From NCBI GenBank assembly GCA_015489815.1, contig WFZA01000019.1, positions 62,001 to 126,000 of the forward strand: DNA of 64,000 nucleotides, written 5' to 3'. This document shows positions 24,335 to 31,220 of the stretch, piece by piece. Each line of letters begins with the position of its first letter. Positions within the stretch are counted from its first letter, which is position 1. Origin of the DNA: Caldisericales bacterium. Its GTDB lineage: Bacteria; Caldisericota; Caldisericia; Caldisericales; Caldisericaceae. The notes beneath the pieces were generated by a model. That model did not search any database and had not been told where the DNA came from. It worked only from the letters and a program-made list of their open reading frames with translations. The position numbers were made by a program, and so were the translations under genes.

Positions 24335-24489
24335 TCTTCACCTCCATTTATTTACTAATACTGATATTGTATAACAAAATCATTTCGTGTAAAACGATTT
24401 TTTTCCTTTTAACGAATTTAATCCACAATCAATAAGTGAAAATCGTTCTTTTTCTAAATTACGCAGGGGCATGGAACTTCAAAATCAAA

Positions 24490-24834
24490 TTATTTAACTT
24501 GTACGATTTTGTCCCCATCAAGTTTCACTCTTTTTGCAAATGAAAGTTCAGTTTTATTTCCGATAGCTGAATAATTAAATCCTCTGTCTTCAAATTCTCG
24601 ATGTAGTGCGGCTAAATATGCCGCTCGTGCGCTTGTCCAACCTGGATTACCAACTTCTCTATTAAATGCTTGTATTAAATCTTTATTTGACAGGTCTCTA
24701 AACCTTGTGCGGAATTCTTCGTAAAAGTTTCTTTGCGATGCACCGTTTTCTTGCTTAAGCACCTTTGAATTGTTTAAGTTTTGTGCTGCAGTTTTTTCTG
24801 TGCCACTCTTTACTTTATTTCTGTTCTTTTTCAT
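24490..24834 (-). CDS. Conserved small protein of unknown function behind a structured leader
   Basis: 114 residues. The first 35 are lysine/asparagine-rich and probably disordered. A compact core follows: FRDLSNKDLIQAFNREV, then WTSARAAYLAALHREFEDRG, predicted helical, and a beta-like tail ending in DGDKIVQVK. I recall similar hypothetical proteins in other bacteria but know no function. Its start has GAAAGGAGAC upstream. The gene sits just downstream of a promoter, a roughly 125-base structured leader and a terminator, so expression is probably set by attenuation. Confidence 0.65.
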   Translation of the reverse strand: MKKNRNKVKSGTEKTAAQNLNNSKVLKQENGASQRNFYEEFRTRFRDLSNKDLIQAFNREVGNPGWTSARAAYLAALHREFEDRGFNYSAIGNKTELSFAKRVKLDGDKIVQVK

Positions 24835-24862
24835 TTTTGTCTCCTTTCATAAATTTATATAG

Positions 24863-24987
24863 CAAAAAACCTGTGCTCCAACTTTTGCTAAAGCACAGGT
24901 TTTATTATCCTAAAATTAAAAACCTTCGCTTTAGCACCCATTTTTTATAAAGGCAGGGGCAAGTTGAAGCTTAAATTCTCACCTTTC
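24863..24987 (-). ncRNA. Candidate attenuator/riboswitch-like leader RNA
   Basis: Transcript predicted from the promoter at 24994-25021. Three nested pairings are visible on the reverse strand: CTTCAACTT with AAGTTGGAG (9 bp, one wobble), TGCTAAAGC with GCTTTAGCA (9 bp, perfect), and AGGTTTT with AAAACCT (7 bp). These use the 5' half of the terminator hairpin, so the fold competes with termination. I recognise no known riboswitch consensus. It could equally be a free small RNA that ends at the terminator. Confidence 0.55.
24864..24903 (-). terminator. Intrinsic terminator between leader and small-protein gene
   Basis: On the reverse strand AAACCTGTGCT pairs with AGCACAGGTTT (11 bp), followed by a run of T. 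It lies 29 bases upstream of the start codon of the gene at 24834, so it ends or attenuates the leader transcript. Confidence 0.8.
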
Positions 24988-24993
24988 ACATAA

Positions 24994-25021
24994 ATCATAA
25001 CGCTTAAAAATTTAAAGTCAA
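24994..25021 (-). promoter_or_regulatory. Promoter of the leader RNA, TTGACT-16-TATGAT
   Basis: The reverse strand reads TTGACT (25021-25016), 16 bp, TATGAT (24999-24994), with a start point expected near 24987. Confidence 0.7.
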
Positions 25022-25030
25022 TAGAAAATT

Positions 25031-25058
25031 TTGATAATCCGCTCTAAAGTGATAAAAT
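25031..25058 (+). promoter_or_regulatory. Promoter of the DUF2148 gene, TTGATA-16-TAAAAT
   Basis: TTGATA (25031-25036), 16 bp, TAAAAT (25053-25058), 35 bases before the start. It is divergent from the leader promoter; the two -35 boxes are 9 bases apart. Confidence 0.7.
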
Positions 25059-28169: not shown

Positions 28170-28611
28170 TTATTTTCTACACTTTACTTCTTTTTGAATA
28201 GACCTGAGGATTTTTAGAATTAGGCCGGATTCAAAGGCAGCCACAAGAGCGCCTTCACAAAAATCTGTCGTTTCTCACGATTGCAGTGATCAGTTTGCAC
28301 TTTGTTACGAGGTTAACAGAATCAAAATCGAAATCTGGATTGCTTGCTATTTTTCTCCCCTCCTCCCACGAAACCCAGTCAAAAGATATAATAATAGGAA
28401 TAGAATAAACAACTTTCAGGAAGCGTAAAACAATTGGTGCTGGCTCGCAATACGGAATTTGTATGATTTGCCCTTTATTTTCCTGTGCCCTTTCACAAAA
28501 AGATGTCGTTTTCTCAATTTCAGGAATTAACTCGAATAGAGGTTGCCAGTCCTCCCGCGTATACGAATTTATTTTCTCCCCGCAATTTTTCTCATTTAAT
28601 ATTTCGTCCAT
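28170..28611 (-). pseudogene. DUF6508-type protein, frameshifted near the C-terminus
   Basis: The frame from 28611 reads a DUF6508-like protein: IPYCEPAPIVLRFLKVVY, IIISFDWVSWEEGRK and LITAIVRNDRF, then stops at once (28255-28257). Removing one base from the T5 run (A5 at 28259-28263 on the forward strand) restores the expected continuation CEGALVAAFESGLILKILRS and a stop at 28170-28172. The repaired protein is about 146 residues. RNDRFCEG is the family's own C-terminal motif, so the lesion is clear; whether it is biological or an assembly error is not. The function of the family is unknown. Confidence 0.72.
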
Positions 28612-28717
28612 TTATTTTCACATCCCAGTAAATCACATACATTGCAGAATCAAAATTCAGAATTTTGTCAGGCAAGTTCCCTTTTACGACACGCTTCTTT
28701 AAAATATCTCCTATGAA
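28592..28717 (-). pseudogene. Possible C-terminal remnant of an unidentified gene
   Basis: An open frame with no good start reads KRVVKGNLPDKILNFDSAMY and then VIYWDVKINGRNIK to a stop, overlapping the DUF6508 start by 20 bases. Composition is protein-like and the overlap fits a former upstream operon partner whose 5' part is lost. I do not recognise the family. Chance cannot be excluded at this length. Confidence 0.28.
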
Positions 28718-28751
28718 TTACCTAAATTTCACAGATTTTGATAGAAAGAAA

Positions 28752-29132
28752 TCATTTCGTTATCGCCTTTTTTTGTGCAAACCACTGTCCTATTTGTTTG
28801 GCAATTTTACCTTTTGATTCTTTTGCTTTAATTGGCAAACTGTTAGCCTTACAGAATGCGTTTAAGTAATCCTTTGTATGGGCCTTAACAAACTCTTCTA
28901 CTACACCAGGATTATTTTTAGTAAATTGTGAGTACAATTCCATATAAATTTGCTTAAATTCCTCCAATGAGGGCATTGGAATCTGTTTCTTAAGCCTTCT
29001 TGGTTGTTTTCTTTTAGTTGCAAGAGGTTTTTCTGGATCTATCTTTTTAAATTCTTCATCAATTTCAGACAATAATCCGGAAATTTTATTAAGCTTTTTT
29101 CTAATATTTTTTATTATTTGTGCATTTGTCAT
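28752..29132 (-). CDS. Small basic protein, putative ParA partner
   Basis: The start at 29132 overlaps the parA stop as ATGA and has GAAAGGATAC upstream; an in-frame ATG at 29159 lies inside parA and is less likely. The 126-residue product has a helical, coiled-coil-like N-terminus (KNIRKKLNKISGLLSEIDEE), a basic linker (KRKQPRRLKKQ) and a C-terminal helical domain with SKGKIAKQIGQWFAQKK. Position suggests the ParB-like or DNA-binding partner of ParA, but no ParB motif is visible. Confidence 0.6.
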   Translation of the reverse strand: MTNAQIIKNIRKKLNKISGLLSEIDEEFKKIDPEKPLATKRKQPRRLKKQIPMPSLEEFKQIYMELYSQFTKNNPGVVEEFVKAHTKDYLNAFCKANSLPIKAKESKGKIAKQIGQWFAQKKAITK

Positions 29133-29992
29133 CTTAGTATCCTTTCTATGCCACTCCATAGCCCTGAAAACTCTTCTGTATAATTATCAGGGAAATATTG
29201 CTCAGGGATGGCCCTTTTTATATCTACTCTTTCAGGAATATAAGAATCTATAGGAAAAACATGAACCCCTGCTCTTTTTTCTTCCTTACAAGAATCTTTT
29301 GTTTCTTCCCAATATCTCTGCGATTCCCTGGTCAATTGTCCTCTATACAATTTGGCCTTGTTCATAAATACAGCAATCTTAGGTACTGGCCACGGATCTA
29401 TTCTTCTTTGAAGCCCGTCTATTAATAGCTTTACACCTCTTGCAGCAAATACATCTGGGTTGATAGGGATTAATAACAGACTGGCACAACTCAACACAGA
29501 ATAGGACAGAGCAGTAAAATTAGGAGGAGAGTCAAAAAATACATAATCATAATTAAATCTGGAATGTTCTATCTTTCCAAGTAATGCACTTGCAAAACTT
29601 TTAGTTTTTTCTTTATCAAAGATTTCAAGTTCTAACCAATAAAGGTCAACAACTGAGGGAACAAAGTGTAAATTAGGGCTCATCTGGTAGATAAAGGAAG
29701 AATCTATCGGAAAATCAAAATATCCTTTTCTGTTTTGATCATACGCCTCCAAAGCATCAAGAAGTGTTTTATGTCTTGCTTTGTGTTTGTTCTCGTACCA
29801 GTCTTCAAATTTATTACGTAATTTACCTGTTTCTTCTTGGAGTTGTACTGCTAATGTAAGACTCATTTGTGCATCCGTATCAATAACCAGAACGCGCTTA
29901 CCCATTTTCTCAGCAGCATACTTTGCAAGCAACCAGGTAATAGTAGTTTTGCCAACTCCTCCTTTAAAGTTAATAGTAGCTATGCCTTTCAC
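29129..29992 (-). CDS. ParA/Soj-family partition ATPase
   Basis: 287 residues. The deviant Walker A is NFKGGVGKTTITWLLA (residues about 8-23), followed by VLVIDTDAQMSLTLA and the Walker B-like YDYVFFDSPPNFTALS; LIPINPDVFAARGVKLLIDGL is typical of ParA. Such proteins segregate plasmids, chromosomes or integrative elements, or position other cargo. No ParB is adjacent, and the genes around it are accessory and partly broken, so a former plasmid or integrated element is more likely than the chromosomal Soj. It has its own promoter with an inverted repeat in the leader. Confidence 0.9.
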   Translation of the reverse strand: MKGIATINFKGGVGKTTITWLLAKYAAEKMGKRVLVIDTDAQMSLTLAVQLQEETGKLRNKFEDWYENKHKARHKTLLDALEAYDQNRKGYFDFPIDSSFIYQMSPNLHFVPSVVDLYWLELEIFDKEKTKSFASALLGKIEHSRFNYDYVFFDSPPNFTALSYSVLSCASLLLIPINPDVFAARGVKLLIDGLQRRIDPWPVPKIAVFMNKAKLYRGQLTRESQRYWEETKDSCKEEKRAGVHVFPIDSYIPERVDIKRAIPEQYFPDNYTEEFSGLWSGIERILR

Positions 29993-30014
29993 TAATCACC
30001 CCTTATTTTGGATT

Positions 30015-30032
30015 TAGGCATTTAGAAGCCTA
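30015..30032. promoter_or_regulatory. Inverted repeat in the parA leader, possible operator
   Basis: TAGGC and GCCTA flank an 8-base spacer, between the parA promoter and start. ParA-type operons are often autoregulated at such sites; here this is inference. Confidence 0.35.
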
Positions 30033-30039
30033 TGGTTTA

Positions 30040-30067
30040 TTTATACCTCATTTATATAAAATGTCAA
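30040..30067 (-). promoter_or_regulatory. parA promoter, TTGACA-16-TATAAA
   Basis: The reverse strand reads TTGACA (30067-30062), 16 bp, TATAAA (30045-30040), 48 bases upstream of the parA ATG. Confidence 0.75.
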
Positions 30068-30398
30068 GCTGTAAGTAACCTAGTAACCATGCCGCCTCGT
30101 TTTGCTAGGATACAACATTGTAAGTGTCAACTTCAAAACTTCAAACTCGACTAACTCTTATGAGAAATAAGAAACTCAGTAAACAATGAGCTTTTGACCT
30201 CTAAGGAAGGAAATCATTGTCGGGAAAGTATTGGCTGGTTTGCTTAATACAACAAACAATGATACACTAGCTTATCGATTTAAATCAACAAACCTACAAC
30301 AAAACAATGTTTCAATTTATAGTCTAATTCAAATAGTAGTGATATAAAGGCAGAATACTGTTGTCAATGGAGCAGCAAAGTAAATTATTTTCTATTTG
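30068..30398. other. Non-coding stretch upstream of parA with short repeats
   Basis: No gene recognised. ACAATGA occurs at 30183-30189 and 30256-30262 and inverted at 30214-30220; looser ACAATG copies flank them. A 30-base stretch at 30135-30164 resembles 45752-45784. The short repeats could be partition-site iterons, but the evidence is weak. Confidence 0.3.
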
Positions 30399-31220
30399 CT
30401 AAATTATGTTTTTAAGTATATTTCTTATGTTTGGATCTTTTGGTACTTCAATAACTCCATATCCTAATACTTCGCCATTTACTGCGTTTTTCCTTAAATA
30501 GGGTTTTATTCTTTTTCCATATAATTAGGCACTATGCTGATATCCGTTCAAAAGACCTCTGATGCTTCCTGCTATAAAATCTGCAAGTTGAATACCAGAA
30601 CTTTGGTGCGAAAATTCTATATTTATGCTGTCTTTTATGTGAGAATATTTGTTTATAAATTTCCCATTTGCATAGATATCATTGTATGCGTCACGGACCA
30701 ACTTGTCGATGTTATTTGAGATGGAGTCAATAAACAGAACACATAGGCTAGAATTTTGCCCTTGAATCTCCATCTCTATTCTTTGCATAGTATCCTCTAT
30801 GTGCCACCTGTAAATAAGATTTTCATCTTCTTGGACATTCGAATCGTTTTTGGTGATCGTAATTATTATTTTTATATAATTAAGATTACTCAGAAGACCC
30901 AGGGCAGAATCAATAAAATTATATGTTCCCTGGAACCCTAAATTTGCGAGGAAGTAAAACGGTTCGCTATGTGGAATAGATTTACTTTTTTTCTCATACT
31001 TAAAAATAGACCAAAGGTATGACCATTTAACTTCCTTATTCCAGTTATTACCTAAATTATTCTTTTTCAAATTTATAAAGTTTCTGTTTAAACTACTCCA
31101 CTCAGACGAGTCCATCAGAAATGTAGCCCTCAGATAGTAGGGACTCTTCTTAATAAATCTTTTACTTCTACTTCCCCTATAACTGCCGCTTTCGTCACTA
31201 AAAGCAAAGAATGTACTCAT
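30399..31220 (-). pseudogene. DUF3800 protein interrupted by an in-frame stop
   Basis: The frame from 31220 encodes a DUF3800 protein: FFAFSDESGSYRGSRSKRF with the typical DESG acidic motif near the start, DSISNNIDKLVRDAYND, and HQSSGIQLADFIAGSIRGLL near the end. TAA at 30527-30525 ends the 231-residue frame, but 41 further in-frame codons (RIKPYLRKNAVNGEVLGYGV and IEVPKDPNIRNIL) run to TAG at 30399-30401. The continuation looks like coding sequence, so this is probably a nonsense mutation or base error. DUF3800 has an RNase H-like fold and often lies in mobile or defence loci; function unknown. Confidence 0.68.

Follow-up and report, generated by a model that had tools for sequence, protein, structure and literature searches.

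Sulfate assimilation genes are among those controlled by SAM riboswitches, of which SAM-II (RF00521) is closely similar to SAM-V (RF01826) in the arrangement that holds the ligand. SAM-II aptamers with long loops are kept as RF01726 (PMC2864571). In SAM-V, S-adenosylmethionine (SAM) is contacted by U8-U9-U10 of the third strand, by U19-U20-G21-C22 of the descending strand of P2 and by C46-U47-A48-A49-A50 of the ascending strand; U8, U9, U20, U47 and A48 surround the adenine and the sulfonium, and A18 lies beside, or is paired with, the SAM-contacting A50 (PMC6061858). SAM-II and SAM-V are also known in tandem, with two related aptamers in one leader (PMC9481103).

A leader that very likely belongs to this group lies at 24863-25021 on the minus strand of the window (the whole 64,000-nucleotide stretch of DNA that was analysed), with a promoter, nested pairings and a terminator all present in its sequence. 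Its features, and those of the gene behind it, are as follows:

24994..25021, minus: sigma-70-like promoter TTGACT-16-TATGAT (scan, 10/12 matches, a pattern match only)
24981..24986, minus: P1 5' strand AAAGGU, paired with 24949-24954; P1 covaries across copies
24971..24980, minus: loop or third strand GAGAAUUUAA, conserved in all aligned copies
24973-24975, minus: UUU of the third strand, matching U8-U10 of SAM-V, the ligand-contacting triplex strand (role from PMC6061858)
24956..24969, minus: P2 5' strand CUUCAACUUGCCCC, doubling as antiterminator 5' half (CUUCAACUU)
24949..24954, minus: P1 3' strand GCCUUU, directly after the UUGCCCC block
24940..24948, minus: L3, an A-rich linker (a variable hairpin P3 in most relatives)
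24924..24939, minus: P2 3' strand GGGUGCUAAAGCGAAG with near-invariant GCUAAAGCG, doubling as antiterminator strand UGCUAAAGC
24969-24961 with 24884-24876, minus: antiterminator pairing 1, CTTCAACTT/AAGTTGGAG
24936-24928 with 24894-24886, minus: antiterminator pairing 2, TGCTAAAGC/GCTTTAGCA
24925-24919 with 24903-24897, minus: antiterminator pairing 3, AGGTTTT/AAAACCT
24876..24903, minus: antiterminator 3' strands AAAACCU, GCUUUAGCA and AAGUUGGAG
24864..24903, minus: intrinsic terminator, 17-bp stem (24903-24887 with 24882-24866), loop AAAA, T6 tract 24869-24864
24841..24847, minus: Shine-Dalgarno-like AAAGGAG, read from the sequence
24490..24834, minus: putatively regulated gene for a 114-aa protein with the signature FNREVGNxGW, start ATG at 24834

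An earlier note on this DNA had named the promoter, three nested pairings and the start codon. The promoter is recovered at 25021-24994 on the minus strand by sequence and scan, and the pairings and the ATG are found where the note put them. The terminator it described is likewise present, but its stem is 17 bp long with G-U pairs included, and the loop 4 nt, rather than the 11 bp given there. Judged by the promoter, transcription would start at about 24987-24990, just ahead of P1. A simple terminator scan of the window leader called no terminator, probably because the stem extends into the T tract. The 128-nt leader folds better than 199 of 200 dinucleotide shuffles (z = -3.6). Under constrained folding the antiterminator (-38.1 kcal/mol) and the terminator (-39.3 kcal/mol) are near-isoenergetic and mutually exclusive, and as the chain grows in simulation the antiterminator leads between about 100 and 120 nt, giving way only with the final ~8 nt. 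The two states are thus balanced, as expected of an attenuator.

The leader is also evidently a genuine cis-regulatory RNA that has been conserved. Three genomes from another group (L010, L016 and L020) have homologous leaders ahead of their genes for homologues of the small protein. For the two protein relatives detailed further below, the leader reads AGGYGAGRAUUUAA-N-CUYCAACUUGCCCCNGCC; a hairpin that varies, GGGUGCUAAAGCG and a U-rich stretch come next, and then a terminator with AARUUGGAG in the loop. The earlier note had suggested a covariance search, and custom models built from homologous leaders bring the number of copies to about 30, from several families and more than 10 genomes, with E values down to 1e-21. 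The first aptamer model recovered copies in G400, G012 (of the window genome's family), G614 and G592. The second, built on seven copies, gave strong matches (E below 1e-6, weaker ones being left out) in all eight genomes searched of one family, which hold one to four copies apiece, often in tandem, and also in G655, G663, G664 and G592. Weak model matches (L025, L026 and L116-L123) appear unrelated and were excluded. Two motif copies in tandem, both followed by terminators, occur in L023, L104, L107, L108, L109, L111, L112 and L133; in the second aptamers ahead of peroxiredoxin genes (L023, L108, L109, L112), one or two hairpins of about 40-50 nt are inserted between UUUAA and CAACUUGC. A terminator hairpin with a T run lies 24-52 nt 3' of 27 of the 28 aligned copies, and in many of them, the window included, its 5' arm matches the P2 3' strand as its complement (GCUAAAGC.. 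with ..GCUUUAGC). Structure conserved in the leader, together with terminator and antiterminator folds that exclude each other, is what generally marks riboswitches and other attenuators, and this RNA has both.

A strict pattern searched in 54 genomes of the same phylum matched only the window, and the covariance model later added G012. Homologues of the protein and of the RNA were not found in plasmid and phage collections. A match in a Sulfitobacter phage was rejected, covering only 32 nt of the terminator region over a hypothetical gene, as were pattern matches in viral contigs, which fell to noise level on re-scoring with model R2. Nested inverted repeats had also suggested an integron attC-like site, which was dropped in view of the conservation and covariation of the leader RNA. 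A description of the motif was not found in the literature, as covered by open-licence papers.

The aligned copies conform to an H-type pseudoknot formed by the 5' strands of the leader, which had not been spotted from the window alone. P1 reaches at least 4 bp in 26 of the 28 copies, against a mean of 9.8 and a maximum of 17 in 2000 strand shuffles. Its sequence varies (AAAGGC/GCCUUU, AAAGGU/ACCUUU, AACGC/GCGUU, UGGC/GCCA, CCGGC/GCCGG, AAGC/GCUU, UUAU/AUAA), and among the 13 copies aligned without offset compensatory changes on both sides are seen at all five P1 pairs. P2 is almost invariant, so that complementarity and changes at a few pairs are what speak for it, and taken alone this helix does not clearly beat shuffles. 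The core UUU...UUGC...GCUAAAGCGG is invariant across the copies, which is not independent evidence as the 28 were partly picked with a pattern containing it; L115, among the stronger model matches, departs from it (UUUGG). Pocket positions hardly vary and hence yield no covariation, and tools for nested structures cannot score a pseudoknot or a triplex.

Both SAM-II and the motif have an H-type pseudoknot of P1 and P2 (here with P1 covarying and P2 near-invariant in its complementarity), a GAUUU third strand, a UUGC and GCUAAA core, a terminator platform and sulfur genes downstream. In a direct comparison with a genuine SAM-II in L037, the UUU third strand, UUGC and GCUAAA stand in the same order and positions. 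The motif differs from RF00521 in a P2 lengthened by CCC/GGG, in carrying CAACUUGC and the signature GCUAAAGCGG, in an L3 that usually holds a hairpin and in having C rather than A at position 18, beside A50, in 26 of the 28 copies, the window among them; A is found in L114 and in the second copy of L104. RF01726 has the same core with lengthened loops, and its true member L138 shares GCUAAAGC with the motif, whereas the members fetched have P1 GUGG/CCAC and an AUUGCAA signature unlike it. As for SAM-V, with its H-type pseudoknot, major-groove triplex and P3 hairpin ahead of conserved A residues (PMC6061858), the window copy places UUU, CUUGC and GCUAAAG in SAM-V order around P1 and matches every contact position except 18, residues unlisted in that paper being mapped by inference from the pairs named there. 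SAM-V acts on translation by hiding the Shine-Dalgarno sequence, whereas the motif has terminators, and the lengths of P1 and P2 differ.

The earlier note had recognised no known riboswitch class here, and that judgement holds: no Rfam 15 family reaches its gathering score on the window leader or its relatives, relaxing the limit to E 10 for several copies brings up no family that fits, and the aptamer is not singled out by the SAM models, every motif copy lying below the cut-offs for SAM-II, SAM-II long loop and SAM-V. RF00521, at its best, gives 13.8 bits (gathering 36) and RF01726 14.8 bits (gathering 44), weak matches that both fall exactly on the L114 aptamer, and RF01726 is unlisted up to E 10 on the window, L016, L024 and L104. 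For RF01826 (gathering 41 bits), matches are listed in seven motif-bearing genomes, below the cut-off and away from the motif. A genuine SAM-II in L022 (43.5 bits, cut-off 36), reading GAUUUGUGCCCUAUUGC...GGCUAAAACGG, lies ~50 nt 3' of a motif copy. This mixed tandem (L022 / L037 1361-1600, G012) runs from a motif copy with its own terminator through the SAM-II to small ORFs, and it resembles the known SAM-II/SAM-V tandems in having two related aptamers in one leader but differs in order and partner (PMC9481103).

The genes behind the copies are these:

CysD: L114
sulfate ABC transporter substrate-binding protein: L133
CysT, behind a peroxiredoxin: L023
EpsC-type serine acetyltransferase: L130
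nitrite/sulfite reductase domain protein: L110
1-Cys peroxiredoxins: L023, L108, L109, L112
O/P-type porins: L104, L125, L128
ABC ATPases of the taurine/nitrate kind: L113, L115
small FNREVGNxGW protein: window, L010, L016, L020
protein of no assigned kind: L024

These genes make up a pattern of sulfate assimilation and sulfur uptake. The fetched RF01726 matches precede metK- and metY-like genes (named by eye from translations).

We consider the leader to be a transcription-terminating OFF riboswitch, a variant of the SAM-II/SAM-V superfamily that escapes current models, most likely with SAM as its ligand (probability about 0.75). The first ~65 nt would form the pseudoknot, with P1 AAAGGU/GCCUUU, the third strand ..AAUUUAA, which would lie in a triplex as in SAM-V, and P2 pairing CUUC-AA-CUUGC-CCC with GGG-U-GC-UAAAGC-GAAG. 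A bound ligand, most likely SAM, would keep both P2 strands in the aptamer; the 17-bp terminator could then form and transcription would stop ahead of the gene. With ligand scarce, the P2 strands would instead pair with the 5' arm and loop of the terminator (CUUCAACUU/AAGUUGGAG, UGCUAAAGC/GCUUUAGCA and AGGUUUU/AAAACCU), no terminator would form and the small protein would be made. The OFF direction is suggested by the geometry of P2 strand and terminator arm, because a ligand that stabilises the pseudoknot would keep the P2 3' strand away from the terminator's 5' arm and so leave the terminator free to form. The view of the earlier note is supported by the homologues, by covariation and by the conserved terminators: an attenuator governs the 114-residue protein by termination. 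Where it left the signal as "some ligand or RNA", the SAM-II/SAM-V topology and pocket residues of the core, and the relatives on sulfate-assimilation genes, narrow this to a sulfur metabolite, most likely SAM. The ligand is inferred rather than shown, because position 18 is C and not A in nearly all copies, and it speaks against our reading that the window gene is not a known sulfur gene and that the L024 copy stands ahead of a protein of no assigned kind.

That altered position could mean that the same scaffold, still acting by termination, senses a different sulfur metabolite, for instance S-adenosylhomocysteine, an adenylated sulfate or some other adenosyl compound, in a pocket with C18 beside A50. 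The longer P2 and third strand compared with SAM-V, and contexts that favour sulfate uptake, activation and cysteine synthesis over metK/metX, would fit such a ligand, the RF01726 matches being those with metK- and metY-like genes behind them. We nevertheless regard it as unlikely: the counterparts of U8, U9, U20, U47 and A48 are all kept (PMC6061858), A18 itself survives in two copies, and the motif stands in tandem with a true SAM-II. SAM riboswitches are, moreover, known on sulfate assimilation genes. The simpler view, that the motif is an undetected arm of SAM-II or of its long-loop form and no separate class, is a question of classification that overlaps with our main reading. It is a serious possibility, if a somewhat doubtful one, given the same topology and core, the long L3 and the shared GCUAAAGC of L138; against it, true RF01726 matches in 308 genomes never fall at motif loci among the matches listed, and the extra CCC/GGG in P2, a longer linker before UUU, position 18 and the gene contexts all differ. 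More tentatively, the motif may be a distinct class on the SAM-II scaffold, in which ligand or affinity is altered by lengthening of the triplex and rewiring of the pocket at its amino-acid end, and which gates sulfate and sulfonate assimilation in several lineages and switches on a new family of small sulfur-starvation proteins.

It is improbable that, in the manner of ribosomal-protein leaders, the fold is chosen by a protein regulator, for which the small protein with its basic N terminus could be a candidate. On L016 no Rfam family comes closer, still below threshold, than the L20 leader (RF00558), likewise an attenuator with a U-rich linker and a terminator; its 29.8 bits are half the gathering score (58.7), the alignment covers mainly linker and terminator, the core differs and the genes are unrelated and not an rplT operon, so this candidate was rejected. 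Moreover, the same RNA stands ahead of unrelated genes (CysD, sulfate-binding protein, porins) untied to the small protein, and its core residues fit a small-molecule pocket. Weak inverted repeats do arise in A+T-rich intergenic DNA, but a chance hairpin or terminator with no switching function is hardly credible, being contradicted by conservation across distant genomes, covariation and conserved terminators.

Under the SAM riboswitch reading, ample SAM would keep the window gene off and sulfur limitation would turn it on. The gene product is predicted to have a three-helix core and a beta hairpin, and has no significant match in Pfam, NCBIfam, PHROGs or among folds. One relative, 51% identical in the matched part, is in an Acidobacteria MAG and a second in another genome of that phylum, 2.3 Mb in size; both genes are preceded by plainly the same leader RNA. 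FNREVGNxGW proteins also occur in the phage-like viral contigs L013, L014 and L015 without the leader, and because of these members the family is wider than the riboswitch. For the family as a whole, sulfur status would be the first functional clue. Through the motif, the SAM-II/SAM-V superfamily reaches into bacteria and genes to which present models are blind, and the natural change at ligand-facing position 18 offers a direct test of how the pocket separates SAM from its relatives. These results also suggest an under-count of pseudoknotted riboswitches, since the knot is beyond what a covariance model can encode.

The sequence GCCCCTGC of the aptamer is repeated right after the stop codon of the small gene (24456-24480), probably by chance. 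Back to back with the leader promoter lies a divergent promoter-like TTGATA-16-TAAAAT (25031-25058, plus strand) that would serve the gene for a DUF2148 ferredoxin-domain protein. Further along the window, at 28255-31220, a cluster of a ParA-like ATPase, a DUF6508 protein and a DUF3800-like protein (assigned by eye) suggests a mobile island.
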